Below, piece by piece: positions 30,301-60,938 of a DNA stretch of 64,000 bases (the first letter of the stretch is position 1; every line of letters starts with the position of its first letter). The DNA is from Myxococcaceae bacterium (lineage in GTDB: Bacteria > Myxococcota > Myxococcia > Myxococcales > Myxococcaceae). The DNA lies in NCBI GenBank assembly GCA_019694595.1, contig JAIBBQ010000003.1, positions 1 through 64,000 on the forward strand. Direction: 5' to 3'. The translations under genes were made by a program, and so were the position numbers. Under the pieces are notes generated by a model. That model saw only the letters and a program-made list of their open reading frames with translations. It searched no databases and had not been told where the DNA came from.

Positions 30301-33300
30301 CTCGAGGAGATGCCGCTCAACTCCAACGGCAAGATCGACCGCAAGAAGCTGCCGGCGCCCGAGCTGACCCCGGAAGGGTCCAACCTGGTGGCGCCGCGCA
30401 ACGTGTTCGAAGAACTCGTGGCCAGCGCCTTCGCCAGGGCGCTCGAGCTCGCCAAGGTCGGCGCGACCGACGACTTCTTCGCGCTCGGTGGTCACTCGCT
30501 GCTGGCGGTGCAGGTCGTCGCCCACCTGCGAGAGTCGACCGGCGTCGAACTCCCGCTGCGCACGGTGTTCGAAGAGCCCACGGTCGAGAAGCTCGCGCGC
30601 AGCTTGCAGAGCGCGCACGCCGTTCGACAGGGCAGCACGGCCATCCCGCCCGTGACGCCGGCGCCCCGCAACGGCCCCCTCCTCGCGTCGTTCGCGCAGG
30701 AACGGTTGTGGTTCGTCGAGCGCACGCACCCCGGTGACACCGGGTTCAACGTCGTCGACGCGTTTCGAATTGCCGGCCCGCTGAACCACCCAGCGCTCGA
30801 ACGGGCGATGACCGACCTGCTGCGCCGCCACGAGGTCCTGCGAACGACCTTCGCCGAGATCGACGGGGTCCTGATGCAGCGGTTCACGGCCCCTGCGCCA
30901 GTGGTGCTGCCGCCGCTCGACCTCGCAGGCGATGCCCCTGCCGTCCAGCAGACCAGGATGCAGACCCTGGTGGAGGAGGCCGACGCGCTGCCCTTCGACC
31001 TCGAGAAGGGGCCGCTGTTCCGGCACCGTCTCGTCCGCCTCGGCGCCGAAGACCACGTCCTGCTGCTGTCGTTCCACCACGCCGTGATGGACGGGTTCAC
31101 TCTGCTCATTCTGCTGCAGGACCTGAGCGCCCTGTACCAGCACGCCATCGGCGAGTCGAAGACCCCGCCCCCGGAGCCCAAGCTGCAGTACGCCGACTAC
31201 GCCATCTGGCAGCGGAAGTGGCTCGAGGGCGGCGAGATGAAGGCGCAGCTCGACTACTGGAAGAAGGCGCTCCAAGGGTCACCCGGGGTGCTCAATCTCC
31301 CGACCGACCGGCCCCGCGAGCGCGGAGCGAGCGGTCAGGGCAAGGGCGGCTACACCTCGAGGCCGATCGGCAAGGGCATCGCGACCGCGCTCGAGCGGCT
31401 GGGGCGCGAGCGGGGCGTCACCCAGACGATGCTCCACCTCGCCGGCTTCACCACCCTGCTGCACCGCCTGAGCGGAGACGAAGACGTGAGCGTCGGCATC
31501 GACGCCCAGTCGCGGGCAGCGCCCGAGCTCGAGCGGGTGTCGGGCATGTTCCTCAACCTGCTCGTGCTGCGCATGCAGCCGCAGGGCGACCAGGCCTTCA
31601 ACGAGCTGTTGACCCACGTGCGCGACGTCGCCCTCGGCGCCTACTCGCACCAGGATGCCCCCTTCGAGCGCATCGTCGAAGCGGTCAACCCCAGCCGGAC
31701 GCTGAACCGCACCCCGCTGTTCCAGGCGGCGTTCGACTACCAGCCGTTCTCCTCTCTCGAGGAAGCAAGCCGGTTCCGGGTCTACCAGGTGAAGGCCACG
31801 CGATCGGCGCTGATGGGCGAGATCTACCTGCGCATTCGGGCCGAGCGCGAAGGGCTGATCGCGCAGCTCATCTACGACGAGACCCTCTTCGAGGCGTCCT
31901 CGGCGGACCGGCTGCTCGAGCAGTACGAGCAGCTGCTGCGCTCCATCTGTGCGGCGCCGGCGGCACCACTCGCGGCGCTGAACCTGGTCAACGACCAGCA
32001 GCGCCAGCAGGTGCTCAACGACTGGAACCAGTCGAACCGCACCTACCCGAAGACCAGCACCTTCGAGGTGGTGTTCAAGGCCCAGGCCGCGAAGACCCCC
32101 GGCGACGTGGCGGTCGTCTTCGGCGCCCGGTCGCTGACCTACAAGGAGCTGAACGACGCGGCGATGGGCGTCGCCGCGGCGCTCGTCGAGGCCGGGGTGG
32201 GGCCCGGCGACCTGGTCGCCCTGCTGTCGCCCAGAACGCCCGAGCTGATGTCGTCGATGCTGGGCACGTTCCTGGCGGGGGCCGCCTACGTCCCGCTCGA
32301 CCCGCATCACCCGCCGGCGCGCCTGGCCACGGTGATCGCGCGCGCGAAGCCCAAGGTGGTCATGTCGAGCAAGGACCTCGACCCGCTGCTGACGCAGGTG
32401 CTCGCGCAGGGCGATGCGAGCGACAAGCCGCGGCGGCTGCCGTTGACCGCGTCGGCTGCGCCGCGCGCGTTGCCCGAGGCCAAGCCGGGCGACCTCGCCT
32501 ATGTGATCTTCACCTCCGGTTCGACGGGCGTGCCCAAGGGCGTGATGGTGGAACGGCAGGGCATGCTGAACCACCTCTACGCCAAGCTGAACGACCTCGA
32601 GCTCTCTCCGCACGACTGCGTCGCCCAGACGGCGTCGCAGTGCTTCGACATCTCGGTCTGGCAGTTCTTCGTCGCCAGCCTGGTGGGGGCACGCACCCGC
32701 ATCGTGCCCGACGAGGTGACCCACGATCCCCGCGCGCTGCTGGCGGACTCCACCAGCGGCAAGGTGACCGTGCTCGAGGTGGTGCCTTCGATGCTGCGGG
32801 CCATGCTCGACGTGCCCGTCTCCCCCGAGGTGGCGCTCGGCCACCTCCGGTGGATGGTCGCGACCGGTGAAGCGCTCCCCGGAGAGCTCTGCCAGCGCTT
32901 CTCGGCCCGCCACCCGCGGGTGCCGGTGGTCAACGCCTACGGCCCGACCGAGTGCTCGGACGACGTCACCCACGCCATCATTCCCAAGGGGAGCGAACGG
33001 GCCACCGCGCCGGTGGGCAAGCCGATCCAGAACACCCGCATCTACGTGCTCGACCCGCACGGCTCGCCGACGCCCATCGGGGTGCCGGGTGAAGTGTACG
33101 TGGGCGGCGACGGAGTGGGCCGCGGGTACCTCGACGACCCCGCCCGCACTGCCGACGCGTTCGTCCCCGACCCGTTCGGCCCGCCCGGCGCCCGGCTGTA
33201 CCGCACCGGCGATCGTGGCCGCTGGCTCCCGACCGGGGAGCTCGAGTTCCTCGGCCGGCTCGACTTCCAGGTCAAGGTGCGCGGCCACCGCATCGAACTG

Positions 33301-34674
33301 GGCGAGGTGGAAGGCGCACTGGCCAGGTGCGCCGGCGTCAAGGAAGCCGTCGCCGCCGCCACGCCCGACGGCTTGCTCGTCGGCTACGTCGTCCCGGCCG
33401 GCAGCGCGCCGCTCGACACGGCCGCGCTGCGCACGCAGCTTCGCGAGTCGCTCCCGGAGTCGATGGTGCCGGGCGCGGTGGTGGTGCTGCAGGAGCTGCC
33501 GCTCACCTCCACCGGCAAGCTCGATCGCAAGCGGCTGCCCGCGCCGACCAGCGAGCCCCTGGCGCAGCGCGAGCGGGTCGCCCCCCGCAGTCCGCTCGAA
33601 GGCCTGGTGGCGGGCGTCTGGGCAAAGGTCCTCGGGCACGACCAGGTCGGCGCCCTCGACAACTTCTTCGAGGTCGGTGGGCACTCACTGCGCTTGGTGA
33701 CGCTGGCGCACGAGTTCGAGCGGGCGCTCGGGGTGGGCCTCAGCCTCTCGGAGCTGGTGAACCACCAATCGGTGGCCGCACAGGCGGCGCTGCTCGCCGA
33801 ACGGCTGCACGGCGGCCGCGCCAAGACCTCGTCGACGACGCTGAAGGTGCTCCGCCCCGGGGAACCGATGGTGTTCGCCATTCACGCCATGCTCGGGGAC
33901 GCGCTGCTGTACGAGCTGTTGACCTCGGTGATGCCGGCCGGGCCGGGGCTCAGCGCCATCGAGGCCCCCGAGCTCGTGGGTGGCGCGCCGCTGCCGACCT
34001 TCGAGGCCCGCGCCGCAGCCTACCTGCGGCTCATCACCGCGGCGCAGCCCAAGGGGCCGTACCGGCTGCTGGGCTACTCGAACGGCGGCGCCATCGCGTG
34101 GGAAGTCGCCCGGCAGCTGCTCGCCCAGAACCAGCAGGTCGAGTACCTCGGCCTCATCGACCCGTCGCTGGCGGCGGCCGGCCTGCCGGCGGTGGCCAAG
34201 CTCGACGACGTGGTGCCGGTCGCCCACTCGCCGTTCTCCGAGGGCTCGACGGACACCGCGCGCCTGTTCGAGACGTTCGCCGAGGCGTTCTTCGAGGCCC
34301 CGGCCAAGGCGACGCTGAAGAAGCTCGGGCCCCCGGAGCGGAGGCGGGCGTTCATCGTCGAGCAGGTGCTGACGATGTCCGGGGCGAGCCCGGCCGGAGG
34401 CGAGGCCGCCGCGCTGCGGCTGGCGAGCGCGGTGCTGGCGATCAACGAGGGGCAGGCCGCGTACACCTACCGGCCGCTGCCGGTGCACGTGGACGCGATG
34501 GTGTCGGCCGAGAACTCGGCCGGCTTCGAGGCGGTACTGCCGGGGTGGAAGACGCTCGCCACCCGCGGCGTGCGGGTACACCGGCTCCCCGGGACGCACC
34601 GGGACATCATCTCGTTCCAGAGGAACGCCCCGCTCGCAACTGCGATCGTCGAAGGCGTGCGCCAACCCAAGTGA
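27358..34674 (+). CDS. NRPS1: C-A-T-C-A-T-TE
   Basis: A 2438-residue two-module NRPS ending in a thioesterase, so it releases the product. Order and approximate residues: C1 45-480 (HHIVTDG at 179), A1 500-990 (TSGSTGTPKG; NCYGATE), T1 1010-1080 (Ser1047 in GGHSLL), C2 1100-1540 (HHAVMDG at 1240), A2 1555-2050 (NAYGPTE), T2 2070-2140 (Ser2110), TE 2160-2435 (Ser2241 in GYSNGG). The start has a good AGGAG. By eye, the Stachelhaus-type residues are D-I-W-Q-P-T-C-D-D for A1, which has a three-residue insertion (WWV) before the 299 region, and D-I-W-E-V-T-A-D-D for A2. Two acidic residues at 330/331 suggest a cationic substrate. It overlaps hydroxylase 2 by GTGA. Confidence 0.93.
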   Translation: MSQPTDSQGPTSAADKRALLQEMLKQREAAGTRAGGAIAPRADKSSTPLSFAQERILLIEALEPDTATHNVPMSLRIKGALDLAALEQSFTALLARHDVLRATFAFNKGVGTQRIGPPAPVKLEVIDLSSRPAPAAESELLRIIDADALLPFKLELGPLSRAKVVKIAADDHAIVWTIHHIVTDGLSTPVLLRDLFDHYSAVTAGRPAQSVLPIQYADYAAWQRTPAVAQVINGQVAYWKRQLEGANFALAFPTDRVRGPKPTSVGSEAFFEIPPATYQAAQALAQKHQATMFMVLEAAYAALLHHYTEQTDICVGTVVGGRSRPETLNLVGPFINPVVLRTKVSATTSFNDLITRTRQTCLEAFSNAEAPFEKVVNAVDADRDQSRHPLYQTIFELQGTPSGGEHQGLRFSPLLPRLRVSRIELSWLLFPLNGGLFGRIEYASELFEADSIKRIATHFSKLLAEACAAPDRPVGRIRFLDEREDALVRTTWSTTGTSEVGDLTFEELFLKQAERTPNNVAVEYLEESLTYQELARKTLTVAGALTAKGIRGGEVVALFSERTPDLLAAIIGTFHTGAAYVPLDPQHPPARLAQVIGRSHAKVVMVSERFMDAAKEAVAEIAADQRPQLLPIDAAGPELSPPPKNPMRSLAYVIFTSGSTGTPKGVMIERRGLVNHLQAKIRDMQLGPSEIVAQNASQCFDISIWQFLVALLLGSRTRILPEETARDPRELMSEVERTGVTILQVVPSMLRAVLDMPMNHRPSLRAVWWVPVTGEALPGDLVTRWHDAYPGIPLLNCYGATELSDDISHAVLAENCDRAIAPLGKPVHNSSMYVVNASGDLSPIGVPGEVCVGGEVVIGRGYLDDPVRTALSFVPNPFSSEPGARLYRIGDRARWRADGSLDFMGRVDFQVKVRGHRIELGEVEAALLKCEGVRQTVVIARDDVLVGYVVPHDGATVVSETLRATLKRSLPEYMVPAVITLLEEMPLNSNGKIDRKKLPAPELTPEGSNLVAPRNVFEELVASAFARALELAKVGATDDFFALGGHSLLAVQVVAHLRESTGVELPLRTVFEEPTVEKLARSLQSAHAVRQGSTAIPPVTPAPRNGPLLASFAQERLWFVERTHPGDTGFNVVDAFRIAGPLNHPALERAMTDLLRRHEVLRTTFAEIDGVLMQRFTAPAPVVLPPLDLAGDAPAVQQTRMQTLVEEADALPFDLEKGPLFRHRLVRLGAEDHVLLLSFHHAVMDGFTLLILLQDLSALYQHAIGESKTPPPEPKLQYADYAIWQRKWLEGGEMKAQLDYWKKALQGSPGVLNLPTDRPRERGASGQGKGGYTSRPIGKGIATALERLGRERGVTQTMLHLAGFTTLLHRLSGDEDVSVGIDAQSRAAPELERVSGMFLNLLVLRMQPQGDQAFNELLTHVRDVALGAYSHQDAPFERIVEAVNPSRTLNRTPLFQAAFDYQPFSSLEEASRFRVYQVKATRSALMGEIYLRIRAEREGLIAQLIYDETLFEASSADRLLEQYEQLLRSICAAPAAPLAALNLVNDQQRQQVLNDWNQSNRTYPKTSTFEVVFKAQAAKTPGDVAVVFGARSLTYKELNDAAMGVAAALVEAGVGPGDLVALLSPRTPELMSSMLGTFLAGAAYVPLDPHHPPARLATVIARAKPKVVMSSKDLDPLLTQVLAQGDASDKPRRLPLTASAAPRALPEAKPGDLAYVIFTSGSTGVPKGVMVERQGMLNHLYAKLNDLELSPHDCVAQTASQCFDISVWQFFVASLVGARTRIVPDEVTHDPRALLADSTSGKVTVLEVVPSMLRAMLDVPVSPEVALGHLRWMVATGEALPGELCQRFSARHPRVPVVNAYGPTECSDDVTHAIIPKGSERATAPVGKPIQNTRIYVLDPHGSPTPIGVPGEVYVGGDGVGRGYLDDPARTADAFVPDPFGPPGARLYRTGDRGRWLPTGELEFLGRLDFQVKVRGHRIELGEVEGALARCAGVKEAVAAATPDGLLVGYVVPAGSAPLDTAALRTQLRESLPESMVPGAVVVLQELPLTSTGKLDRKRLPAPTSEPLAQRERVAPRSPLEGLVAGVWAKVLGHDQVGALDNFFEVGGHSLRLVTLAHEFERALGVGLSLSELVNHQSVAAQAALLAERLHGGRAKTSSTTLKVLRPGEPMVFAIHAMLGDALLYELLTSVMPAGPGLSAIEAPELVGGAPLPTFEARAAAYLRLITAAQPKGPYRLLGYSNGGAIAWEVARQLLAQNQQVEYLGLIDPSLAAAGLPAVAKLDDVVPVAHSPFSEGSTDTARLFETFAEAFFEAPAKATLKKLGPPERRRAFIVEQVLTMSGASPAGGEAAALRLASAVLAINEGQAAYTYRPLPVHVDAMVSAENSAGFEAVLPGWKTLATRGVRVHRLPGTHRDIISFQRNAPLATAIVEGVRQPK

Positions 34675-45123: not shown

Positions 45124-48100
45124 TCAGCCGTCGAGCAGCTGCTCGATGCTCGCGTGGTAGCGGCGCAGCAGCACCTCGATGGTGGCCGTCGAGTACGCAC
45201 CTGCGCTGAAGCTGAAGCTGGTGCGCAGGACGCCCTTGGCGACGCCGGCGTTCACCTCGAGCAGCAGGTCCTTGCGGGTGCGGGCGGCGTCCACGGGGCC
45301 TTCGACGCCAGGAGCCATGGTGAAGAGCGTCGACTCGGCGAGCGCATGGTCGAGGACCCCCATGTAGTTGAAGCAGACGGCAGAGGGCGGGAGCTTCGCC
45401 ATCGCCGAGCGCACGCTCGGTTCGGCCAGGTACTTGAGCACAATGTACCCGAGCCCGTTCCTCGGCACCGCGCGGTTGGCGCGCCGAACCTCGGCCAGGC
45501 GCTCGGCCCAGCTGGAAGCGCCGACGTCGAGGAGCACGGGGGCGTACGCGGTGAACCACCCCACCGTGCGCGAGAGATCGAGCCCTGGGACCACGTCTTC
45601 GCGACCGTGGTGCTCGACGTCGAGCTGCAGCACCTGTCCGCCTGCCCACCCCGTGCACGCGGCGGCCAGCGCGGTCATCAGCAGCTCATGGGGCCGGGCC
45701 TGTGCGGACCTGAGCAGCGCGCGGGTGTGCCCCTCGTCGAGGGTTGCGTGGACCGTGCGCATCGAGTCCTTGGTCATCGGCCCGGTGAGTTCCTTGGGGA
45801 GCGTCACCGCACGCGACCATGGTTGCTGGGTCCAGTACGGCAATTCCTCGAGGAGCGCGGGGGACCGGGCGAACTCGGCCAGGCCGGTGGCCCAGCGCGA
45901 GAGGTCGGAGGTGGTCGCGCCAACGGGCGCCTCCTGCGCCTGCCCCTGGGACGCATAGGCGGCCTCCAGGTCTTCGACGATGACCCGCCAGGAGACCACG
46001 TCGACGACCAGGTGGTGAACGACCAGGAGCACCCAGCCTGGCGCAGCGCTCCCCCGGTTCACCGCGACGGCCTTCACCAGGGGTCCCTGCTGGAGATCGA
46101 AGTCGTGCACATCGGCGGTCTGCTCGGCGAGGCGCCGCTGCTGGGCCTCGACCCCCTCGACACCGCTGACGTCAACCACCGCCACCACGGGAGGCCGCAG
46201 CCTGGCTCCCAGTTCCTGGCTGGCCGATTCTTCCCCCAGGCCGTGAATCCGGGTGGCGAGTGCACGGTGCCGCGCCACGACGGTGCCCAGGGAACGGGTC
46301 AGGCGCTCGACGTCGACCTGACCTTTGAACTCGAGGAGGAGCGACTGCGAGTACCTCGGCACATCCGAGAGGGGGTGCTCGGTGAAGAACCACCGCTGGA
46401 TCGGGGTGAGTGGCACTCTCGAGTCGAGCACCTGGGCGGAAGCGCTGGCTGTGGTCACCTTGGCTGCGGCGGCGATGCCGCTGATGGTCTGACGCGACAG
46501 CACGTCGGCGACCGAGAGCGACAGGCCATGGCGGGCGACCTTGGCGACGAGCTGGAGACTCAACAGCGAGTCGCCCCCCAGCTCGAAGAAGTTGCTCTGG
46601 CCAGAGACCGACGACGCTCCCACCAGGCTGGCCACCGCCTCGGCGACCACGCGCTCGGCGTTGGTGGTGAGCCCACTGGCGCCCCCTTCGCTGGGCGCAT
46701 CATTGGTCGGAACGGGGAGCGCGTTGCGATCGACCTTCCCGGTGTGGGTCCGAGGCAAGCGGTCGAGCTGCATCAGGATCGCCGGCACCATGTGCGCTGG
46801 CAACGAGGTCCGCAGCTGCGCCCGCAGCGCGTCGAGCGTCACTTGCGCCCCGGGCTTCCCCGTGAAGTAAGCGACCAGCTGGGCCTGGCCTTGCGCGAGC
46901 GTCTTGACGGCGACCACCGCATCCTCGACGCCGTCCGTTCGCCGCAGAACGTCTTCAATCTCTCCTGGCTCGATGCGCAGCCCGCGCAGCTTGATCTGCT
47001 CGTCGGCGCGCCCCTGGAAGAACAGAGTGCCATCGCTGCGCTGTCGAACGAGGTCTCCGGTCCGGTAGAGGCGCGCCCCGGGCGGTGCTCCTGGAAACGG
47101 GTCGGGGACGAACCGCTCTGCCGTGAGTGCCGCCTGTCCGCGGTAGCCGCGGGCGACGCCAGCCCCCCCCACCACGAGTTCACCGACCGCGCCCAGCGGC
47201 ACCGGGCGGAGGTCAGGCCCCACCACGGCCACCATTGCTCCGGCGATGGGCTGACCGATCGGGACCACCCCATGGCCAAGCTCGCAGGCACCCACCGTGC
47301 ATTCCACGGAGGTCTCGGTGGGCCCGTACCGGTTGAAGAACGTCGCCTGGGGTCGCCACCGGTTGACCAGCGCCGGGGTGCACGCCTCGCCTCCGCTGCT
47401 GACCACCACGACCTTCGGCAGCTGCTCAGGGCGGAGCGTGGCGAGCACACTCGCCGGAAGATTGAGGTGCTCGACCCCATGCTTGATCGCGAACGCCTCG
47501 AGTTCCACGCCACCGGGACACTTCGGCGGCGCGATGCAGAGCGTGCGCCCCCCCGCGAGCGCCCAGAACAGGTCGTTCATCGACGCGTCGAACGCCGGAG
47601 AGATGAACTGCAGCGCACGCTGCCCACCGAGCCCCTGGAACTGATCGAGGGCCGCGGCAATGGTGTTCGCCACGCCTCGGTGGAGCACTTCCACGCCCTT
47701 GGGTGCCCCGGTGGAGCCCGACGTGTAGATGAGGTAGGCGACCTGGTCGGGGCTCACGGGCCGGGGCTCGAACCCCACGGTCCAGGACACCTGCTCCAGG
47801 CGAACCGCGCGCTCGTCGAAGGGCTCGGGGATCTTGTCCCAGAGGGCCCCTCGGGTGATGACCAGCTGGGTCCCCGAATCTCGAAGAACCAGCGCGAGCC
47901 GCTCGGCGGGGAAGTCCGGGACCAGCGGCACGTAGATGGCGCCCGCCTGGAGCGTCGCCACCACGGACACCACCCAATCGACGCCGCGCTCGAGGAAGAC
48001 GCCCACCGGGACCCCTGGGCCCGCGCCGCGCTTCACCAGCGCGGCGGAGAGCGCGTCGGCCCGCTCAATCAAGTCGCCGTAACTGAGCTCCTGGTCGCTG

Positions 48101-49626
48101 GTGACCACAGCGACCTGGTCGGGCGCCCGCATCGCCTGGGCCCGAACTGCTTCGTGGAGCAAGGTCCTGGCTCGCGGGCTCGGGGCCCGGACCCGGGCGA
48201 GCGCCGCGAGCTCGGCGCGTTCCTCGGCACTGGCCAGCTCGAGGTGCGAGAGCCGAATCCGAGGCTCGCGCACCACCGCCTCGAGGAGCACGCGCAGGCG
48301 AGCCCACAGCCGCAGGACTTCGGCCTCGCTGAAGAGATCGGTGCGCAGATGAAGCCGGGCACCGAGCTCGCCGGTGGCCCTGAGCTCGAACACCCGAACC
48401 GCGAGATCGAACTTCGAGCGGCCGACCATGACCGGCTCGAGCCGCGCCGAAAGTCCGGCGAAGGGCACGGCATCGGGAATCTCTTCTTCGTAGTTGTAGA
48501 TGATCGAGGTGGGGAAGCCGCGCCCGGCGTCCCGCTCGCCGCGCATGGCCGAGACGACGCGGTCGATGCCGGTCTCTCGGTGGGTGATGGCCTCCAGACA
48601 GCGGGTGCGAACCTGCGCCAGCACCTCCTGGAAGGTGGGGTCCCCGGTCCACACGGTTCGCAGCAGGAGCGTGTTCTCGAAGCACCCCACCACGTCCCTG
48701 AGGTCCGGGTGGGTCCGGGTGTCGACGGAGGTGCCGATGAGCACGTCGGAGGTGCGGCACAGCTTGCCCACCAGCACCGCCAGCGCCGCCTCGAGGAAGG
48801 CGAAGGGGGTCGTCTTCTCTGCCCGACACGCCGCCTTCACCGCCGCGAGCAGCGCGGCCGGCATGGGCGGCGGCATCAGCATGCGACCTTCGAAGGTCTC
48901 CGTGCCGGGCGCCGGGCGTGTCAGCGCGAGGTCGGGGGCCGCGGGTGGCGCCGCCAGGACCCGCTTGAAATACTCCAGCCCCGCGTCGCCGCGGGTGGCG
49001 GCCGATTCGCGTTCCCAGGCGGCGTAGTCGGCGTACTGGAGTTTCCCGGGCGCGGCCGACGGCTGCCCCGCGAGCTCTCGCGCGTAGTGGTCGGCGAGTT
49101 CGAGGACCAGCAGGCGAAGGCTCCAGGCATCTTGCAGGGCGCCGTGGAGCGAGAAGAGCAGCGCATGCCGCTCGGGGGAGAACGCATACAGCCGCGCGCG
49201 CACCAGGGGACCGACGCGCACGTCGGCCCCGGTCCCCACCACCGAGAGCACCTTCGCGTGCAGCTGTTCGAGCGTGGCGGGCCGGAGCTGCTCGATCTCG
49301 AGCGGCGCCGCCGCGGGGCTCACGCGCTGAACGAAGCGTTCCTGGATCTCGGGGAAGGTCGTGCGGAGGGGCTCGTGTCGTGCGGTGAGGGCCGCGTAGG
49401 CCCGCTGGAGCGCCTGTCGATCGAGGGTGCCCTCCAGATGCACGAGGATGGTGACCCACCAGCTCGGCCCCAGCGGCTCCAGCTGCTCCAGGTAGAGCAG
49501 CCGCTCCTGCGCGGTCGAGATGGGAAGGTCGCCGCGCCTCTCGATGGGTCTGGGACCCGCGGGCCTCTCGCCCGCCTGCCGGTTGCGAAGCGCCTTTTCG
49601 AGAATCGCCCTCTTGCTCTCGGACAC
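45124..49626 (-). CDS. NRPS2: C-A-T-E
   Basis: A 1500-residue single-module NRPS. C-like domain about 35-460; its HHxxxDG motif reads LHGALQDA (His161, Asp166 kept, first His and Gly lost). A about 480-965 (TSGSTGAPKG; NRYGPTE; HTGKVDR). T about 985-1055 (Ser1020 in GGDSLL). Epimerisation domain about 1070-1490 with HHLVVDVVSWR (His1204, His1205) and VGWFTAYAP, so the module delivers a D-residue. By eye the specificity residues are D-A-N-N-S-G-R-V-E, for which I know no match; the acidic 331 may favour a basic side chain. There is no release domain, so it must pass its residue to another protein. It is divergent from the cytochrome/ABC operon. Confidence 0.92.
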   Translation of the reverse strand: MSESKRAILEKALRNRQAGERPAGPRPIERRGDLPISTAQERLLYLEQLEPLGPSWWVTILVHLEGTLDRQALQRAYAALTARHEPLRTTFPEIQERFVQRVSPAAAPLEIEQLRPATLEQLHAKVLSVVGTGADVRVGPLVRARLYAFSPERHALLFSLHGALQDAWSLRLLVLELADHYARELAGQPSAAPGKLQYADYAAWERESAATRGDAGLEYFKRVLAAPPAAPDLALTRPAPGTETFEGRMLMPPPMPAALLAAVKAACRAEKTTPFAFLEAALAVLVGKLCRTSDVLIGTSVDTRTHPDLRDVVGCFENTLLLRTVWTGDPTFQEVLAQVRTRCLEAITHRETGIDRVVSAMRGERDAGRGFPTSIIYNYEEEIPDAVPFAGLSARLEPVMVGRSKFDLAVRVFELRATGELGARLHLRTDLFSEAEVLRLWARLRVLLEAVVREPRIRLSHLELASAEERAELAALARVRAPSPRARTLLHEAVRAQAMRAPDQVAVVTSDQELSYGDLIERADALSAALVKRGAGPGVPVGVFLERGVDWVVSVVATLQAGAIYVPLVPDFPAERLALVLRDSGTQLVITRGALWDKIPEPFDERAVRLEQVSWTVGFEPRPVSPDQVAYLIYTSGSTGAPKGVEVLHRGVANTIAAALDQFQGLGGQRALQFISPAFDASMNDLFWALAGGRTLCIAPPKCPGGVELEAFAIKHGVEHLNLPASVLATLRPEQLPKVVVVSSGGEACTPALVNRWRPQATFFNRYGPTETSVECTVGACELGHGVVPIGQPIAGAMVAVVGPDLRPVPLGAVGELVVGGAGVARGYRGQAALTAERFVPDPFPGAPPGARLYRTGDLVRQRSDGTLFFQGRADEQIKLRGLRIEPGEIEDVLRRTDGVEDAVVAVKTLAQGQAQLVAYFTGKPGAQVTLDALRAQLRTSLPAHMVPAILMQLDRLPRTHTGKVDRNALPVPTNDAPSEGGASGLTTNAERVVAEAVASLVGASSVSGQSNFFELGGDSLLSLQLVAKVARHGLSLSVADVLSRQTISGIAAAAKVTTASASAQVLDSRVPLTPIQRWFFTEHPLSDVPRYSQSLLLEFKGQVDVERLTRSLGTVVARHRALATRIHGLGEESASQELGARLRPPVVAVVDVSGVEGVEAQQRRLAEQTADVHDFDLQQGPLVKAVAVNRGSAAPGWVLLVVHHLVVDVVSWRVIVEDLEAAYASQGQAQEAPVGATTSDLSRWATGLAEFARSPALLEELPYWTQQPWSRAVTLPKELTGPMTKDSMRTVHATLDEGHTRALLRSAQARPHELLMTALAAACTGWAGGQVLQLDVEHHGREDVVPGLDLSRTVGWFTAYAPVLLDVGASSWAERLAEVRRANRAVPRNGLGYIVLKYLAEPSVRSAMAKLPPSAVCFNYMGVLDHALAESTLFTMAPGVEGPVDAARTRKDLLLEVNAGVAKGVLRTSFSFSAGAYSTATIEVLLRRYHASIEQLLDG

Positions 49627-52769: not shown

Positions 52770-54137
52770 GTGGGGCACTCACAATCTGAGAAGGTCGCGA
52801 TCCTTGGCGCTGGGCCTGTGGGTGTTGCCCAGGCCATGCTCCTTTCAAAGCTGAAGCTGAAGCCGCAGATCTTCGAGGGGAGAACCGACCTTCGAGGGCG
52901 GCAGTCGGCGGGCGGTCGGTCGATCAACCTGACCCTGGCGCACCGGGCCTTCGCGACGTTCGACGCGCTGGGGATCACGGACGAGGTGCGGTCGATCTGC
53001 GTGAAGTGCCGCGGCCGCTACTTCCACGGCACCGATGGCTCGGTTCGCTACCACCCCTACGGGCCACGCGACGAGGACGCCCTGTACGCGGTCTCCCGCA
53101 TGGGGTTGCTGCGAAAGCTGCTCGAGATCGCCGACCGGGACCCCGGACTCCAGTTCGCGTTCACCCACCGCGCCGTGTCCATCGACCTGAGCGGCTCGCC
53201 GCGGCTGAGCATCGATCGACCCGAGGGCGGCGACCCCTACCAGCTGCAGGTCGACCGGATCATCGGTGCCGACGGCCAGTCGTCGGTCGCGCGCTCGGTG
53301 CTGCTGCAGGACCCGTCCTACGACCTCCACGTGCGCTACGCGCCGGTGCTGTACCGGGAAGTGAGCCTGCCGCTCGCCAAGCGGGGGGAGACGCCGCTGC
53401 CGGCCGACGGGCTCCACATCTGGCCCCGCGGCGAGGTGATCCTGGTGGCGATTCCCAACCTGGACGGCGGCCACACCGGCTCGCTCTTTCTCCCCATCGA
53501 AGGGCCGCACGGCTTCAACGCCGCGCGCGATCGCGCGGGCCTGCGGCGGCTGTTCCGCGAGCTCTTTCCGGACATCGAGAACCGGGTCCCGTCGCTGGAG
53601 TTCGATTTCTTCCATCGGCCAGCGTCAGTGCTGTGCTCGGTCGTGATCAACCGGGTCCACCGCGGGGGCGAGGTGGTGCTGGTGGGAGACGCGGCGCGCT
53701 CGGTGGTGCCTTACCTGGGACAGGGGCTCAATGCAGGCCTCGAGGACGCGCTCCAGCTGTTCCGGGCGCTGGAGCGAAACGACCTCGCCTTCGGCAAGGC
53801 GTTCGCGGAGTACAACGAGGCCCGGGTGCCGGACAACTACGCGCTCCAGGAGCTGGCCTTCGCGCACTACGAGGAGCTGGCCGTCAAGGGGGCGCAGCAG
53901 GACTACATCGTTCGCAAGCAGCTGGAGCGAACGGTGCAGGAGCTGATGCCCAAGGAGTTCGAGTCGCTGTACTCGATGGTTTCCTTCTCTGCTCGCCCCT
54001 ACGCGGAATGCGCCCGGCTCGCAGCCAAGCAGGAACGGGTGCTGACGCGGCTCCTCTCCAGGCCAGGAATCGTCGAGCGCATGGGCACTCCGGGGTTCAA
54101 GCAAGAAGCGCTCGAGGTGCTGCAGACGGTGCAGTGA
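52770..54137 (+). CDS. FAD-dependent monooxygenase, kynurenine 3-monooxygenase-like
   Basis: A 455-residue class A flavin monooxygenase from a GTG start. It has the FAD dinucleotide motif AILGAGPVGVAQAMLL, the KMO-like signature GRSINLTLAHRA, the DG segment GADGQSSVARS, and VVLVGDAARSVVPYLGQGLNAGLEDA (the GD motif). Overall similarity points to kynurenine 3-monooxygenase, which hydroxylates an aromatic ring ortho to the amine. No tryptophan dioxygenase or kynureninase gene is in the window, so the substrate may instead be an aromatic or other amino acid of the peptide. It stands alone between the exporter and the diamino-acid genes. Confidence 0.87.
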   Translation: MGHSQSEKVAILGAGPVGVAQAMLLSKLKLKPQIFEGRTDLRGRQSAGGRSINLTLAHRAFATFDALGITDEVRSICVKCRGRYFHGTDGSVRYHPYGPRDEDALYAVSRMGLLRKLLEIADRDPGLQFAFTHRAVSIDLSGSPRLSIDRPEGGDPYQLQVDRIIGADGQSSVARSVLLQDPSYDLHVRYAPVLYREVSLPLAKRGETPLPADGLHIWPRGEVILVAIPNLDGGHTGSLFLPIEGPHGFNAARDRAGLRRLFRELFPDIENRVPSLEFDFFHRPASVLCSVVINRVHRGGEVVLVGDAARSVVPYLGQGLNAGLEDALQLFRALERNDLAFGKAFAEYNEARVPDNYALQELAFAHYEELAVKGAQQDYIVRKQLERTVQELMPKEFESLYSMVSFSARPYAECARLAAKQERVLTRLLSRPGIVERMGTPGFKQEALEVLQTVQ

Positions 54138-54214: not shown

Positions 54215-56101
54215 GTGCTTGACGAGAACACTGCCACTGCGGTCGCGCCGGGGACGTGCGGAGAACTCATGCAGGGTGTCATCGGGGGGCGCGACTTCCT
54301 GGTGACGAGCCCGATCGACTTCTTCTCCACGGTGACGGTGACGCTGCGCCCAGGCGAGGAGATCGTCGTCGAAGGCCTCAAGGACTTCTCGAAGGTCATC
54401 ACCGCGGTGCGGCTGACCCTCAAGGAGCTCGGCGTCAGCGGCATGGGCGGGAAGGTGCAGGTGCAGTCGAGCATCCCTCGGTCCAAAGGCATGGCCTCGA
54501 GCAGCTCGGACATCACGGCGGCGGTGCTCGCGACCGCGGAGGCCGCGGGCAAGGCGGTGCCTCCCTACACCATCGCGCGCACGGCCGTGGAGATCGAGCC
54601 GTCGGACGCCGTGTTCTTTCGTGACGTGGTGATCTTCGACCACATCCGCGGCGAGCTCTTCGAGCTGCTGGGGCCGCCCCCCAGTTTGAACTTCGTCATC
54701 GTCGACACCGGAGGGGAGATCGACACCCTGGAGTTCGACCGAGAGAGCGCGCGGGCGAATGCACGCAAGCACGAGAGCGAGCTGGCGCGCGGGCTCGATC
54801 TGGTCCGGCGCGGGTTCCGACAGCGCCGCCCTGATCTGGTCGCGGAAGGGGCGACGCTGAGCGCGGTCTGCCACCAGAAGGTGCTGGTGAAGCCCAAGTT
54901 CGACGACCTGCTGAAGAGCACCGCGGAGGTCGGCGCGCTGGGCGTCAACTGTGCCCACAGTGGAACGGTCCTCGGCGTGATGTTCGACCCCACGACCACC
55001 CCCGCGGAGCCGATTCTGGAGCGAACCGCGAAGCTGTTCGGCGAGCGGGCGATCATCGGCAATTTCCGCTTGATCTCCGGAGGCTCGCGGCTCGTTCATT
55101 CGTCGAAGGCCAACCTCACGCCCGCACAGCTGACGCAGATGAAGACACTCGGCACGCCGGCGCAGCGGCACCGTGTGGGCGAGATGATGGTACTGGAGTT
55201 CGAGTCGGAGAACGATCGCGCGCACCGGACCTTCGTCATGCCCGACGGGAGCACGCGCGCATCGAGCCCCGACCCCACCGAGGGCTACTGGAACAACCCC
55301 GCGGTGGTTCGCCCAGCCGAAGGCGAGCTGTGGGAAATGCAGGTGCGCGCTGACGTGACCGGGCCGGTGGTCTGGTACGAGCCCGCGGGAGGCAACCGCT
55401 CGGTGGTGCCCACGGTTCGCCTGCTCGACCGGGCGAGCTTCGAGGCGGGGTTCGTGAAGACCGGTGACGTGTGGACCCGGCAGGTGCGCGTCACGGGGGT
55501 CCAGGACGGTGCGGTCTCCCACGTCGGTGTGCACGACCAGAGCAGACGAGACCGCCTTCCGCTCCCCGTCTTTCTGGCGACCTTCTCGCGCTGCAAGACC
55601 GAGGCGCCCGGCAGCGACCTGCTGCGCCGGTTCCTCAAGGCGAACGCGGTGCGCGGCGAGCTGGTGTCGACGGGGCGGCACATGCCGACGGTGCCCGACG
55701 CAGCGGCCGCGCTGAACGTGACCCCAGGACAGATCGTGAAGTCGATTCTGTTCGAGGCCAAGAAGAAGGACGTGGTCGGCATGGCGATCGTGCCGGGCGA
55801 CGTCCGGGTCTCGATGCGAAAGGTGGCCGACGCGCTCGGGCTGCCCTCGCTGCGACTGGCGAAGGCCGAGACCGTGCTCCAGCGCACCGGCTATGCGGTG
55901 GGTGGCGTTCCACCGGTCGGGTACATCACCTCGGTGCCCGTGGTGGTGGACAGTGGGGTGATGAAGCACGCCTCGGTGTACGGCGGCGGCGGTGACGAGC
56001 TGCACATGCTCAAGATCTCCCCGGAGGAGATCGTTCGCCTCACGGGCGCGCGCACCAGCGACGTGGTGGAAGGGCCAGCCGACCGAGGCCCCGAACCATG
56101 A
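54215..56101 (+). CDS. GHMP kinase (threonine kinase-like) fused to YbaK/ProX editing domain
   Basis: A 628-residue fusion with a GTG start. Residues 1 to about 300 are a GHMP kinase of the L-threonine kinase (PduX) type: APGTCGELMQG opening, LVTSPIDFFSTVTV, and the Gly/Ser-rich ATP loop RSKGMASSSSD (residues 89-99). About 300-470 is a linking region I do not recognise. About 472-615 is a YbaK/prolyl-tRNA-editing domain with the conserved Lys509 in QIVKSILF, VPGDVRVSMRKVADALG, TGYAVGGVPPVG and GGGDELHMLKI. First of four overlapping genes. Proposed roles: make O-phospho-L-threonine for 2,3-diaminobutyrate synthesis and, by the YbaK part, clear tRNAs mischarged with a Thr analogue. The second role is inference. 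Confidence 0.87.
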   Translation: MLDENTATAVAPGTCGELMQGVIGGRDFLVTSPIDFFSTVTVTLRPGEEIVVEGLKDFSKVITAVRLTLKELGVSGMGGKVQVQSSIPRSKGMASSSSDITAAVLATAEAAGKAVPPYTIARTAVEIEPSDAVFFRDVVIFDHIRGELFELLGPPPSLNFVIVDTGGEIDTLEFDRESARANARKHESELARGLDLVRRGFRQRRPDLVAEGATLSAVCHQKVLVKPKFDDLLKSTAEVGALGVNCAHSGTVLGVMFDPTTTPAEPILERTAKLFGERAIIGNFRLISGGSRLVHSSKANLTPAQLTQMKTLGTPAQRHRVGEMMVLEFESENDRAHRTFVMPDGSTRASSPDPTEGYWNNPAVVRPAEGELWEMQVRADVTGPVVWYEPAGGNRSVVPTVRLLDRASFEAGFVKTGDVWTRQVRVTGVQDGAVSHVGVHDQSRRDRLPLPVFLATFSRCKTEAPGSDLLRRFLKANAVRGELVSTGRHMPTVPDAAAALNVTPGQIVKSILFEAKKKDVVGMAIVPGDVRVSMRKVADALGLPSLRLAKAETVLQRTGYAVGGVPPVGYITSVPVVVDSGVMKHASVYGGGGDELHMLKISPEEIVRLTGARTSDVVEGPADRGPEP

Positions 56102-57636
56102 GCGTCGGAGCGGGCGTGGGGCGCCTGGCGAGCGGGCCCCACCCGACGCTCTTCCGGCTCCTATACGAGCCAGCCCTGGAGCACGACCTGGAGGTCGTGC
56201 TCCCCCAGCTCCTCGACGTCGACGCCGCGCACGTGGTGATGGCGGTCACGCGCGGGCTGTTGCCGGCGGAGGTGGGGGCATCGCTGCTCTCGGTGAACCG
56301 GGAGCTCGCCCAGGCGATCGCCGCGGGCAAACAGCCGCTGGCGGTGCCCGACATCCACCGCGGCATGTATTTCCTGTACGAAGGCGAATACATCCGCCGG
56401 CTGGGGCCGCAGGTCGGCGGCAGCGCGCACGTCGCACGCAGCCGCAACGACATCAACGCCACGATCTTCCGCATGCGCGCACGCTCCGCGGTGATCGAGC
56501 TCCTCGAGCGTCTGCACGGGTTCACCGCCGCGCTGTCAGCGTTCGCGCGGCGACATGCGGGAACGCTGGTCTGCGGCTTCACACACCTACAACCTGCCCA
56601 GCCCACGACCGTGGGCCACGTCTTCTCCGGGGTGCTGGGCGAGCTGACGCGAACCGCCGACTGGCTGGCGCAGGCCTATCCTCCCCTCAACCGGTCGCCG
56701 ATGGGCGCGGCTGCAGGGCTGGGAACCTCGTTCCCCATCGACCCGCACCAGGTGGCGAGCCTCCTGGGGTTCGACGCTCCCATCGACAACTCGATCGACG
56801 CGGTCGGCAGCCGGGACTCGTCGGTCCACGTCCTGGCCCCGCTGGCGCTTCTGGGCACGACCCTGAGCCGGTGGGCGCTCGACGTGCAGCTGTGGGCGAG
56901 CGCGGCCTACGGCTTCCTCGACTTCGGTGACGACCTGGTGAGCACGAGTTCCATCATGCCGCAGAAGCGCAACGCCTTCGTGCTCGAGAACATCCGGGGC
57001 CAGGCCGTGCGCGCCACCGGGGCGCTGATGACCACCCTGATGGGGCTCAAGAACACCCCTTTCACCAACAGCGTCGAGGTCAGCGGGGAAGCGGCCTCGC
57101 ACCTGTGGGCGGGTGCCGCGGCGAGCGTTCAGGCGCTGGAGCTGGCGACGCTGCTGGCGTCGCAGCTGATCATGCGTCCTCAGGAGGCCACCAGGTTCCT
57201 CGAAGGAAAGGACACCACGATGACGGCCCTGGCGGACGCGCTGGTCTCACAGTTGGGCCTCAGCTTTCGGACCGCGCACGAGGTGGTCGGGACGCTCGTC
57301 GCGCGCGCCCCCCGGGGAGGGGTCGGTGAAGAGGCGCTGCGCTCGATCTTGCCGTCGCTGCTCTCGGTCCCGCTGACGGGGGCCCAGCTCGACCGGCTGG
57401 TGCCGGTGCTCTCGCCCGCCGGCGCGGTGCAGGCCGCCGCGTGGGGAGGCGGGCCGTCGCCCGCCGCGGTCGAAGGACAGCTCGACCGGCTCGATGCACG
57501 TCGGCGCGCTCGTCAAGAAATGGTCGATGGCTGGAAGGCCTCGCTCGCACGCGCGCGCGAGCGACTGAGTGGAGCGGTCTCGGAGACGATGGCAGGCTCG
57601 GCACCCCGAGGCGAAAACAGGGAGACGACACGATGA
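56098..57636 (+). CDS. Argininosuccinate lyase family protein (fumarate-releasing)
   Basis: A 512-residue member of the argininosuccinase/fumarase superfamily. SRNDINATIFRMRAR, GFTHLQPAQPTTVGH (catalytic His region) and the mobile signature loop STSSIMPQKRNAF (Ser284/Ser285) are intact. Placed between a Thr-kinase-like and a cysteine-synthase-like gene, it is unlikely to serve arginine synthesis. The expected reaction is elimination of fumarate from an N-succinyl adduct (aspartate joined to C3 of a C4 amino acid), leaving a 2,3-diamino acid; as I recall this is the role proposed for DabB in friulimicin. ATGA overlaps both neighbours. Confidence 0.9.
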   Translation: MSVGAGVGRLASGPHPTLFRLLYEPALEHDLEVVLPQLLDVDAAHVVMAVTRGLLPAEVGASLLSVNRELAQAIAAGKQPLAVPDIHRGMYFLYEGEYIRRLGPQVGGSAHVARSRNDINATIFRMRARSAVIELLERLHGFTAALSAFARRHAGTLVCGFTHLQPAQPTTVGHVFSGVLGELTRTADWLAQAYPPLNRSPMGAAAGLGTSFPIDPHQVASLLGFDAPIDNSIDAVGSRDSSVHVLAPLALLGTTLSRWALDVQLWASAAYGFLDFGDDLVSTSSIMPQKRNAFVLENIRGQAVRATGALMTTLMGLKNTPFTNSVEVSGEAASHLWAGAAASVQALELATLLASQLIMRPQEATRFLEGKDTTMTALADALVSQLGLSFRTAHEVVGTLVARAPRGGVGEEALRSILPSLLSVPLTGAQLDRLVPVLSPAGAVQAAAWGGGPSPAAVEGQLDRLDARRRARQEMVDGWKASLARARERLSGAVSETMAGSAPRGENRETTR

Positions 57637-58739
57637 AAGTTGGTTCGGTGCTGGAGCTGATCGGGAAGACGCCGCTCGTCAAGTTGCGAGGGCGTGAGCA
57701 GTCGAAGCCGCGCGCCAGCCTGTGGGCCAAGCTCGAGCTGGCCAATCCCGGCCAGATGAAGGACCGGGTGGCGATGCAGATGGTCCTCGATGCCGAGCGC
57801 ACCGGGGTGCTCAAGCCAGGCGGGATGATCGTCGAGAGCAGCTCGGGGACCATGGCCGAAGGCCTGGCGCGCGTGGGCACCCTCAAGGGCTACCCGGTGA
57901 TCATCGTCACCGACCCGCGCATCGACAAGAGCACCGAGGCCAAGTTGCGGGCGCTGGGGGCGCAGCTCGAGATCGTCAGCGAGTACCACCCGACCGGGGG
58001 CTGGCAGGTCTCCCGGCTCGCCCGGTTGAAGGAAGTGATGGCCCGCAACCCCGGGGCCTTCTGGCCGAGGCAGTACGACACGCCGAGCAACCCCGGCGCG
58101 TACGAAGCGACGCTGTCGCAGGAGCTGGTCGCCGACCTCGGGACCAAGATCGGGGCGCTGGTGGCGACCGTGGGCAGCGGCGGGTCGCTCAGCGGCAACG
58201 CGCGGGCGCTGCGCAAGCTCTGCCCCGGACTGAGGGTGGTCGCGGTCGATGCGGTGGGGTCGGTTCAGTTCAACCAACCCAACAAGAGCCGCCTGCAGTC
58301 GGGTCACGGCAACAGCATCATCGCGGGCAACATCGACTACTCGGTGATCGACGAAGCGCACTGGATCCACGACGGCGAGTGCTTCAACGCCTGTCGCGAG
58401 CTGGCCCGACGCGAAGGCATCTACGGTGGAGGGTCTTCCGGTGCGGTGTACGTGGTGGCGAGCTGGGTGGCGCAGCAGCTCCCTGAAGATCAGCACGTGG
58501 TGATGATCTGCTGCGACAGAGGTGACCGGTACGGTGAGAACATCTACAGCGACGAGTACTTCCAGAAGCACGGCCTGACCGGGGTGGTGGCGGCCGGTGA
58601 GCCGAAGCGCATCAGGTACGGCGTCGACGTGGCCGAGCGCTGGAGCTGGGCGCCACTGCCTCACGACGGCAGCGTCCCGTACTACGCGGCGGACATCACC
58701 AAGAGCGGTGACCTCACCCGGTCCCTGGGGCTGGGGTGA
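57633..58739 (+). CDS. Cysteine synthase/CBS-like PLP enzyme (beta-replacement)
   Basis: A 368-residue fold-type II PLP enzyme. IGKTPLVKL, the PLP Lys43 in NPGQMKDRV, the substrate loop ESSSGTMAEGLA (in place of the SGNTG of cysteine synthase) and the phosphate cup TVGSGGSLSGNA are present. It is about 45 residues longer than CysK, with the extra part at the C-terminus. The altered substrate loop and the neighbours suggest beta-replacement of O-phosphothreonine (or O-phosphoserine) with the amine of aspartate, which the neighbouring lyase then cleaves. SbnA of staphyloferrin B synthesis is a related known case using phosphoserine and glutamate. Overlaps both neighbours by four bases. Confidence 0.9.
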   Translation: MKVGSVLELIGKTPLVKLRGREQSKPRASLWAKLELANPGQMKDRVAMQMVLDAERTGVLKPGGMIVESSSGTMAEGLARVGTLKGYPVIIVTDPRIDKSTEAKLRALGAQLEIVSEYHPTGGWQVSRLARLKEVMARNPGAFWPRQYDTPSNPGAYEATLSQELVADLGTKIGALVATVGSGGSLSGNARALRKLCPGLRVVAVDAVGSVQFNQPNKSRLQSGHGNSIIAGNIDYSVIDEAHWIHDGECFNACRELARREGIYGGGSSGAVYVVASWVAQQLPEDQHVVMICCDRGDRYGENIYSDEYFQKHGLTGVVAAGEPKRIRYGVDVAERWSWAPLPHDGSVPYYAADITKSGDLTRSLGLG

Positions 58740-59971
58740 AGCACTACGTCTTCATCGAGAGCAACACCACGGGCACTGGCAGGCTCGCGGTGGAGCGGCT
58801 CGTTCGCGAGGGACACCAGGTGACGTTCGTCACCCGCACTCCGGCGAAGTACCCCTTCCTCAGCACGCCGCCTGCCAACCTGCGCGTGGTCGAAGCCGAG
58901 ACCAACGACCAGGCGCAGCTGGAAGCCGTGCTCGACCGGCTGGCCGCGGAAGGGCCGCCCACCGCGGTGCTCAGCTTCTCGACGTACTACATCGAGTCGG
59001 CGGCGCGCCTCGCCCGCCGGCTCGGGCTCCGAAGCATCGACCCCGAAGCGGCCAGGCAGTGCCACCACAAGTTCCTCGGCCGCCAGGCGCTGCGGCGCGC
59101 GGGCGCGCCCACGCCGCCCTTCTGGTTGGTAGGGACTCAGGAGGAGGTCGACGCGCTCAAGGGGAGCGTCACCTTCCCCTGCGTGGTGAAGCCCCCGTCG
59201 GACAGCGGGAGCATCGGTGTCCGACGCGTCGACTCCTTCGAGGCGCTCCGGGACCAGGTGGCCGCGCTCGCGCAGCGGGCCACGAACGACCGTGGGCAGG
59301 CGCTCGACGGGCGGGTGCTCGTCGAGGGTTACCTGCGGGGGCCCGAGTTCTCGGTGGAGGTCTTCACGCTCGCGCGTGGGCAGCACCACGTCTTCGGCGT
59401 GACGCAGAAGCACCTCTCGCCGGAACCTCACTTCGTGGAGGTGGGCCACGACTTCCCGGCGCCGCTGCCGGAAGCGCAACGTCGAGCGCTGGTGACGGCG
59501 ACGACCCAGGGCCTGGACGCGGTCGGCCTGGACTTCGGCTTCTCGCACACCGAGGCCCGGCTGACGGACGCGGGAGCGGTGATCATCGAGATCAACCCCC
59601 GGCTCGCCGGAGGCATGATCCCCGAGCTGGTCGGCTACTCGACGGGGCTCGACGTGCTCGGCCTGATGTTCGCCGGGCTCGAAGGCACGCCGGCCCAGCT
59701 CGAACCGCTGCGCTCGGATGTGGCCTCGATACGCTTTCTCCTCGCCGAGCAACGAGGGACGTTGCAGGGGGTCGACGGCCTGGAGGCCGCCCGCGCCGTG
59801 CCAGGCATCAAGCTCATCGAGGTGGACAAGAAGCTGGGGAGCTCCGTTCGGCCCCCCGAGTCGTCGTCGGACCGCATCGGCTACGTCATCGCCGCAGGGC
59901 GCGAGCGCGCCGACGTCGAGCGGGCGCTGGCCGAGGCTCGCCGCCAGCTGAGGCTTCGCATCGCCCCCTGA
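58736..59971 (+). CDS. ATP-grasp ligase
   Basis: A 411-residue ATP-grasp protein from a GTG that overlaps the previous stop. The preATP-grasp domain starts YVFIESNTTGTGRLAVERL. ATP-binding features are FPCVVKPPSDSGSIGV, VLVEGYLRGPEFSVEV and the metal-binding segment VIIEINPRLAGGM. The family joins a carboxylate to an amine through an acyl phosphate, often making dipeptides or amides. As last gene of the diamino-acid block it may ligate the diamino acid or aspartate to another amino acid outside the NRPS. The exact substrate is unknown. Confidence 0.9.
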   Translation: MKHYVFIESNTTGTGRLAVERLVREGHQVTFVTRTPAKYPFLSTPPANLRVVEAETNDQAQLEAVLDRLAAEGPPTAVLSFSTYYIESAARLARRLGLRSIDPEAARQCHHKFLGRQALRRAGAPTPPFWLVGTQEEVDALKGSVTFPCVVKPPSDSGSIGVRRVDSFEALRDQVAALAQRATNDRGQALDGRVLVEGYLRGPEFSVEVFTLARGQHHVFGVTQKHLSPEPHFVEVGHDFPAPLPEAQRRALVTATTQGLDAVGLDFGFSHTEARLTDAGAVIIEINPRLAGGMIPELVGYSTGLDVLGLMFAGLEGTPAQLEPLRSDVASIRFLLAEQRGTLQGVDGLEAARAVPGIKLIEVDKKLGSSVRPPESSSDRIGYVIAAGRERADVERALAEARRQLRLRIAP

Positions 59972-60188: not shown

Positions 60189-60938
60189 ATGTCATTCGAT
60201 TACGAGGCTGCAGTTCTCTACGACCTGATGAACCCGCCGCAGTTCGAGCCCGATCAGATCGACTTCCATCTGCACCACGCGATTCGGGCACGCAACGTGC
60301 TCGACTTCGGTGCCGGCACGGGCCGTGTCGCGATCCCGCTCGCCGAGCACCGGGTGAACGTCACCTGCTTCGACAAGTTCGCCGGCATGCTGGCGGCGCT
60401 CGTCATCAAGGTCGCCGGCCGGACCGAGCTCCACCCCTTCGTGACGCCGGTGTCGGGCGACCCGTTGACCATCGATCTCAAGAAGCAGTTCACCTACGCC
60501 TACATGTCCCGGGTGTTGTTCTACCTGCCGACAGACGAGGAGCGGGTGGCGCTGTTCCGAAACGTCGCCAAGCACATCGAACCCAACGGCGTGTTCTGCG
60601 TCGACGCTCCGATGGGCAGTCGCCTGTCTCAGCCCAAGACGCAGACGCACAAGATTCGCCTCGGCCGCTACCAGTACACGGTGGCGATCGGGTACGAGCG
60701 CCAGGGTGGCACGCAGTACAAGGGCGTCTACACGTTCACCGAGCACTACAACGGCGAGCTGATGAAGACCCGTGACAGCCACTTCGACGCCGCCGACATC
60801 CCCGGAAAGAACTACATGATCGACCTCTTCAATGAGGCGGGGCTCACCGTCGAGGAGATCTACGCCGACCACAAGTTCAAGCCGTACCCGTCGACGGGAG
60901 AGGCCGACTACGGCATCTTCCTCGCACGCAAGAAGTGA
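60189..60938 (+). CDS. Class I SAM-dependent methyltransferase
   Basis: A 249-residue methyltransferase. The SAM-binding motif is VLDFGAGTGRVAIPL, followed by VTCFDKFAGML, and AYMSRVLFYLPTDEER in place of the usual motif IV region. The C-terminal sheet ends YGIFLARKK. It could methylate N, O or C; the sequence does not tell. It is separated from NRPS3 by 19 bp and probably shares its transcript, so a tailoring role on the peptide or its precursor is likely. Confidence 0.87.
   Translation: MSFDYEAAVLYDLMNPPQFEPDQIDFHLHHAIRARNVLDFGAGTGRVAIPLAEHRVNVTCFDKFAGMLAALVIKVAGRTELHPFVTPVSGDPLTIDLKKQFTYAYMSRVLFYLPTDEERVALFRNVAKHIEPNGVFCVDAPMGSRLSQPKTQTHKIRLGRYQYTVAIGYERQGGTQYKGVYTFTEHYNGELMKTRDSHFDAADIPGKNYMIDLFNEAGLTVEEIYADHKFKPYPSTGEADYGIFLARKK

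Follow-up and report, generated by a model that had tools for sequence, protein, structure and literature searches.

A PduX-type kinase joined to an INS-superfamily domain in a myxobacterial amino-acid cassette: a candidate for self-protection by trans-editing

The window, a stretch of 64,000 nucleotides from a Myxococcaceae bacterium, contains an open reading frame of 628 aa (54215-56101, forward strand, GTG start) in which two enzyme domains are joined in a single frame. Residues 1-300 (54215..55114) form a PduX-type GHMP kinase domain, a probable L-threonine kinase, and residues 467-628 (55613..56098) form an INS-superfamily (YbaK/ProX-type) editing domain, in which the codon at 55739..55741 specifies Lys509, the lysine that is conserved throughout the superfamily and needed for deacylation (PMC10164551). 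Third-position G+C is 0.86-0.96 in each 50-codon block and is unbroken across the junction. The middle region, residues 301-461 (55115..55597), is also found in the kinase proteins of genomes G095 and G097 at 35-38% identity, and generated no match in Pfam or in the PDB. A weak similarity links its last 80 residues to the C-terminal end of a conserved protein of ~450 aa, most occurrences of which are in the related family f3, presumed to be Anaeromyxobacter and its kin. An AlphaFold2 prediction run without an alignment had a pLDDT of 32 and was set aside.

The fusion gene overlaps by 4 bp the gene for an argininosuccinate-lyase-like enzyme (56098..57636; TIGR00838, E=4.5e-87; Lyase_1, E=2e-42). 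It is followed on the same strand by genes for an SbnA/cysteine-synthase-like PLP enzyme (57594..58739; TIGR03945 SbnA, E=2.6e-82, with a score under that model's curated cut-off; PALP, E=8e-55), whose reading frame opens at 57441 with homology beginning near 57594, and for an L-amino-acid-ligase-like ATP-grasp ligase (58736..59971; ATP-grasp_4, E=4e-24; LAL_C2, E=1e-22). A gene for a SAM-dependent methyltransferase (60189..60938, forward strand; Methyltransf_12, E=2.6e-10) probably belongs to the same operon. Upstream of the fusion gene, also on the forward strand, lie genes for a VioC/UbiH-like FAD monooxygenase (52770..54137; FAD_binding_3, E=1.7e-16; VioC, E=7e-29, below cut-off) and a DrrA/DrrB-type ABC exporter (50701-51639 and 51636-52676; drrA, E=2.8e-74; ABC2_membrane_3, E=1.5e-23), homologues of which are present in the G087 and G101 clusters. 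The window further encodes a C-A-T NRPS on the reverse strand (45124..49626; Condensation, AMP-binding and PP-binding domains) and a C-A-T-C-A-T-TE NRPS on the forward strand (27358..34674; Pfam domains and motifs). Genes for a CmlA-type diiron beta-hydroxylase (24768-26372) and a flavin-dependent halogenase of the tryptophan type (36300-37769), both on the reverse strand, are located nearby.

Kinase, SbnA-like and argininosuccinate-lyase-like genes, the combination by which a 2,3-diaminobutyrate cassette was recognized, occur together in the window. Judged by enzyme families, the conversion of threonine to 2,3-diaminobutyrate would be expected to be carried out by a kinase together with an SbnA-like enzyme and a lyase that releases fumarate, and a cysteine-synthase/argininosuccinate-lyase pair has been noted in the cluster of a gausemycin-type 2,3-diaminobutyrate peptide (PMC12471526). 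The lyase-like, SbnA-like and ATP-grasp genes identified beside the fusion gene bear out the dab-type operon context that had been proposed in an earlier, sequence-only reading of this DNA. An extra threonyl-tRNA synthetase, as an alternative means of self-resistance, was searched for and not found, one synthetase scoring over the cut-off. In the kinase domain, GHMP_kinases_N matched residues 61-134 (E=2.7e-11). The domain showed 34% identity over 97% (E=1e-35) to a Peptoclostridium homologue that sits in a cobalamin operon also encoding threonine-phosphate decarboxylase, which agrees with the threonine-kinase assignment made in the sequence-only reading. The GHMP motifs SKGMASS, E-x-x-x-D and HSGT are kept across 14 homologues, and the N-terminal domain is regarded as a probable PduX-type L-threonine kinase.

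In the C-terminal domain, Pfam tRNA_edit (PF04073) matched residues 490-609 with 90.3 bits (cut-off, 25.5; E=1.3e-25) over model positions 4-123 of 123, and the top PDB sequence matches were the INS-superfamily editing proteins 1wdv (E=2e-23), 2cx5 and YbaK (1dbu/2dxa). Lys509 lies in IVKSILF and is invariant across the seven members of a single clade, hereafter the editing clade, as are GGVPP and GGGGD (alignment A1). The domain had been described from the sequence alone as a complete YbaK/ProX-type domain with Lys509, and the PF04073 match and the position of this lysine agree with that description. The window domain is 53-61% identical to six stand-alone orthologues, with which it forms the editing clade (support 96/100); purifying selection acts on the domain in these relatives (dN/dS 0.11-0.27). 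Identity with YbaK proper was rejected, both by the NCBIfam equivalogs TIGR00011 (69.2 vs 153.25 bits) and PRK10670 (44.5 vs 243 bits) and by the tree, in which the E. coli and H. influenzae YbaK proteins fall in clades separate from the editing clade. ProXp-x was likewise rejected; TTHA1699 (2cx5) groups with other Myxococcota proteins (89/83) and not with the editing clade. The domain was not grouped with the ProXp-ST1 reference YeaK, which forms a very long branch, nor with the sampled APE2540-like proteins; FthB and ProXp-ST2 are outside the tree. The deep placement of the clade is uncertain because of long branches. The domain is thus assigned to the INS superfamily as a member of an uncharacterised subfamily and not as a YbaK ortholog, and it is probably an aminoacyl-tRNA deacylase as predicted from its family. 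Another INS subclade, made up of stand-alone editing proteins with the motifs GYPPGGTPPLG and GYGGGGRPELL, was observed in the window's family f1 (L009-L016), in genomes without a dab cassette.

No member of the editing clade has diverged further than the window domain (end branch 0.57 vs 0.01-0.30 for the others), and the fusion occurs once. Both observations would be expected if the fused domain had no catalytic role and the fusion were a degenerating accident. However, all family-invariant residues are kept, the frame is intact and the coding composition is normal, and we consider such an accident very improbable.

To place the cassette among its relatives, 195 Myxococcota genomes were surveyed, with a threshold of E<1e-60 for SbnA and the lyase. 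SbnA-like and lyase-like proteins were found in the same eight genomes, presumed to be Myxococcaceae, with the SbnA-like enzyme 64-71% identical in the seven genomes other than the window's. All eight keep the ATP-grasp gene in the cassette, and all eight cassettes are linked to NRPS genes, an NRPS run adjoining the G095/G097 cassette in a carrier-domain search. The editing clade was present in exactly seven of the 195 genomes, all among these eight, with scores of 272-305 bits to the clade profile (next best, 109). PduX-like kinases were found in the same seven genomes and no others of the 195, and each of the seven has the editing gene immediately upstream of the gene for the lyase. In the other six the editing domain is a separate gene, the kinase fusion being confined to the window genome. 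The proposal that the domain pair might track dab-type genes thus held in part: the editing clade follows the cassette and the kinase within Myxococcaceae, but the fusion itself occurs in one genome. Against a collection of genome contigs, the full-length fusion protein generated no match, and the profile of alignment A1 matched one locus only, the G101 contig of Hyalangium versicolor. As the clusters share ancestry, the linkage in seven of eight cassettes represents few independent events.

In G095 and G097 the editing and kinase genes share a 4-bp overlap in different frames, while in G087, G101, G099 and G093 the cluster also contains the kinase gene, at a distance of 3 to 35 kb. About 25 codons from the kinase tail of G097 have no counterpart at the window junction, which is most simply explained by a deletion between adjacent genes, and the fusion most likely arose by the joining of two neighbouring, 4-bp-overlapping genes. 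A fusion created by sequencing error (a simple indel) is unlikely given these missing codons and a composition without a frame change. The fusion probably serves co-expression rather than channelling, because editing does not act on the product of the kinase. Comparison of the 14 kinase homologues divided the kinases of the seven clusters into two PduX-like lineages, one comprising the window, G095 and G097 kinases with the cobalamin type, and the other comprising the remaining four with the Azospirillum and Mesorhizobium types. Since the editing gene is constant across two kinase lineages, it appears to travel with the amino-acid cassette and not with one particular kinase; by this comparison, the kinase was swapped while the editing gene stayed. 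In G087 and G101, a PduX-like GHMP kinase forms the last domain of an NRPS of ~2900 aa with the order T-C-A-T-C-A-T and without a thioesterase (L036:5222-14056 and L040:6426-15170, both on the reverse strand). In G099 and G093, kinases of this type are encoded by genes of their own.

The eighth genome, G102, has the SbnA, lyase and ATP-grasp genes and is missing both the kinase and the editing clade; a search for the kinase gave only a weak match on another contig (E=2.8e-5), and the best match to the editing family, elsewhere in the genome, scored 30 bits. When the three shared enzymes were used to build a tree, the eight cassettes formed one clade (100/100) with the window basal, and G102 nested with G093, G095 and G097 (100/99). 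As G102 is nested inside the cassette clade, the kinase and the editing gene were apparently lost there; the ancestor of the clade seems to have had the editing gene already, with its loss in G102 accompanying that of the kinase. The G102 cassette could use phosphoserine as its substrate instead. At G102:C1:481831-484450 (L064, L065), the lyase/SbnA/ATP-grasp cassette lies beside an NRPS and is perhaps a diaminopropionate (phosphoserine) version.

Besides the gausemycin type, friulimicin and the uridyl peptides are further actinomycete peptides with 2,3-diaminobutyrate cassettes. Outside Myxococcota, we found the kinase together with SbnA-like, lyase-like and ATP-grasp genes on annotated plasmids of Kitasatospora, Streptomyces globosus, Streptomyces sp. 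NBC_01351 and Azospirillum oryzae; a Mesorhizobium locus carries the kinase and a cysteine synthase only. No editing gene was found within about 12 kb of the Streptomyces, Kitasatospora and Azospirillum cassettes. Cassettes of this kind therefore do not generally need one, and the editing gene is an addition in the myxobacterial lineage rather than a constant companion of dab-type genes. The fusion, which the sequence-only reading had suggested would be self-protection built into the biosynthetic enzyme, is likewise not a general arrangement, being present in one genome among those found. On the Azospirillum oryzae plasmid (L070:11944-17742), the genes are those for a kinase, a cysteine synthase, an ATP-grasp enzyme, a DMT-family exporter and an argH-like protein; no NRPS gene was found in the 25-kb stretch around this cassette, which may yield a small diaminobutyrate-containing molecule.

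These distributions bear on whether the domain is an ordinary fidelity factor that edits Ala-, Ser-, Thr- or 2-aminobutyryl-tRNA and is unrelated to the product. Its nearest structures are general trans-editing proteins (1wdv and the ProXp-x protein 2cx5), dab-like cassettes in Streptomyces, Kitasatospora and Azospirillum do without it, and a YbaK-family gene with no role assigned occurs in an unrelated tetramate cluster (PMC10956176). However, among the 195 Myxococcota genomes the clade is confined to those with the cassette and is always beside the lyase gene, it has disappeared from G102 together with the kinase, and the window genome carries another INS protein elsewhere. A fidelity role is rather unlikely. 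The domain could also edit tRNA bearing a different residue made by the cluster, whether beta-hydroxylated, halogenated or 2,3-diaminopropionate, as the window cluster includes the CmlA-type hydroxylase and the flavin halogenase, and the identity of the amino acid that the cassette makes is itself deduced from enzyme families. What the six other clusters share with the editing gene is chiefly the amino-acid cassette, with the gene adjacent to the lyase in each, and this possibility is unlikely.

Regarding the bond that is cleaved, the sequence-only reading had offered hydrolysis of an aminoacyl-carrier thioester as an alternative to tRNA editing; the domain would then clear misloaded NRPS carriers like a type II thioesterase. 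This would fit the NRPS linkage of all eight Myxococcaceae cassettes, and the Azospirillum cassette, with no NRPS genes nearby, is also without an editing gene. However, NRPS-linked cassettes of Streptomyces, Kitasatospora and G102 do without the domain as well. The INS-superfamily conserved lysine, to which Lys509 corresponds, positions A76 of the aminoacyl-tRNA, and hydrolysis by ProXp-ala needs the 2'-OH of A76, neither of which a phosphopantetheine thioester has (PMC10164551). The A76 placement and the 2'-OH dependence favour aminoacyl-tRNA over a phosphopantetheine thioester as the substrate. As catalysis by a characterised INS member depends on this 2'-OH, the thioester alternative appears less likely than tRNA editing and is, on the whole, improbable.

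2,3-Diaminobutyrate, which can also be seen as a 3-amino-2-aminobutyrate, is threonine with NH2 in place of OH. As it resembles threonine and 2-aminobutyrate, an INS deacylase would be a fitting tool against it: ProXp-ST1 and ProXp-ST2 strip Ser and Thr from tRNA, and ProXp-x strips 2-aminobutyrate (PMC11295145, PMC7408626). In the proposed pathway, the kinase domain would phosphorylate L-threonine, the SbnA-like enzyme would put an amino donor (probably aspartate) in place of the phosphate, and fumarate would then be released by the lyase-like enzyme to give 2,3-diaminobutyrate or a close threonine analogue, which would feed NRPS/ATP-grasp assembly. Free analogue could be loaded onto tRNA, with threonyl-tRNA synthetase as the likeliest enzyme for this step, and the C-terminal INS domain would hydrolyse the ester of the mischarged aminoacyl-tRNA in trans, so that the producer's proteome would be protected. 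The precedent is FthB, which, according to two later papers, is a ProXp-ST1-related deacylase that is conserved in 4-fluorothreonine clusters and removes 4-fluorothreonine from tRNA(Thr) in Streptomyces (PMC11295145, PMC7408626). This precedent and the linkage to the cassette support the self-protection suggested by the sequence-only reading, whereas the related Streptomyces, Kitasatospora and Azospirillum cassettes without an editing gene weigh against it, as does, though weakly in view of the long branches, the position of the domain apart from YeaK (ProXp-ST1) and ProXp-x in the tree. Because we infer the amino acid and the activity, as we do the chemistry, the tRNA and the protective role, and because other cassettes lack the gene, the chances seem evenly balanced that the domain is a pathway-specific trans-editing deacylase clearing tRNA mischarged with the pathway's threonine analogue. 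Only tentatively do we suggest the narrower possibility that the uncharacterised subfamily is the dedicated 2,3-diaminobutyryl-tRNA deacylase of myxobacterial cassettes, here physically part of the first biosynthetic enzyme.

Makers of non-protein amino acids must exclude them from their own proteins, and FthB is the sole INS-superfamily example of a cluster-encoded enzyme doing so that we found. While FthB already provides an example of an INS deacylase that is encoded in a cluster and directed against a threonine analogue, an uncharacterised INS clade carried by myxobacterial amino-acid cassettes, and an INS domain fused to the first enzyme of an amino-acid branch, are new here. If the proposal is true, a second lineage acting on another threonine analogue would suggest trans-editing as a recurrent self-protection strategy, and an orphan INS subfamily would gain a function. 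It would also provide a genome-mining handle for clusters making translation-toxic amino acids, and an example of a biosynthetic enzyme that carries its own quality control of translation.

Compared with known systems, the window domain resembles YbaK/ProX-type INS proteins in its fold family by sequence, its conserved lysine and its GGxxP/GGGG loops, but in the tree it lies in a clade separate from YbaK, ProXp-x and the sampled APE2540-like proteins, and it does not group with the long-branched YeaK, the ProXp-ST1 reference. According to a 2024 review, trans-editing INS members are single-domain proteins apart from INS itself; the review also shows ProRS-fused and plant-extended ProXp-ala, and a kinase-editing fusion is absent from the architectures it gives (PMC11295145). 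The N-terminal domain is like the PduX L-threonine kinase of cobalamin synthesis in its GHMP motifs and in its full-length identity to the cobalamin-operon homologue; unlike PduX, it is encoded in a dab-type operon of an NRPS cluster and is followed by extra C-terminal regions. The cassette shares its cysteine-synthase-like and argininosuccinate-lyase-like enzymes with actinomycete 2,3-diaminobutyrate cassettes of the gausemycin type (PMC12471526), and also shares its kinase and ATP-grasp genes with the Streptomyces, Kitasatospora and Azospirillum loci, which differ from the myxobacterial cassettes in having no editing gene nearby. FthB of Streptomyces cattleya is likewise a cluster-encoded INS deacylase, guarding against the threonine analogue of its own cluster, but it is a stand-alone protein and acts on another analogue.
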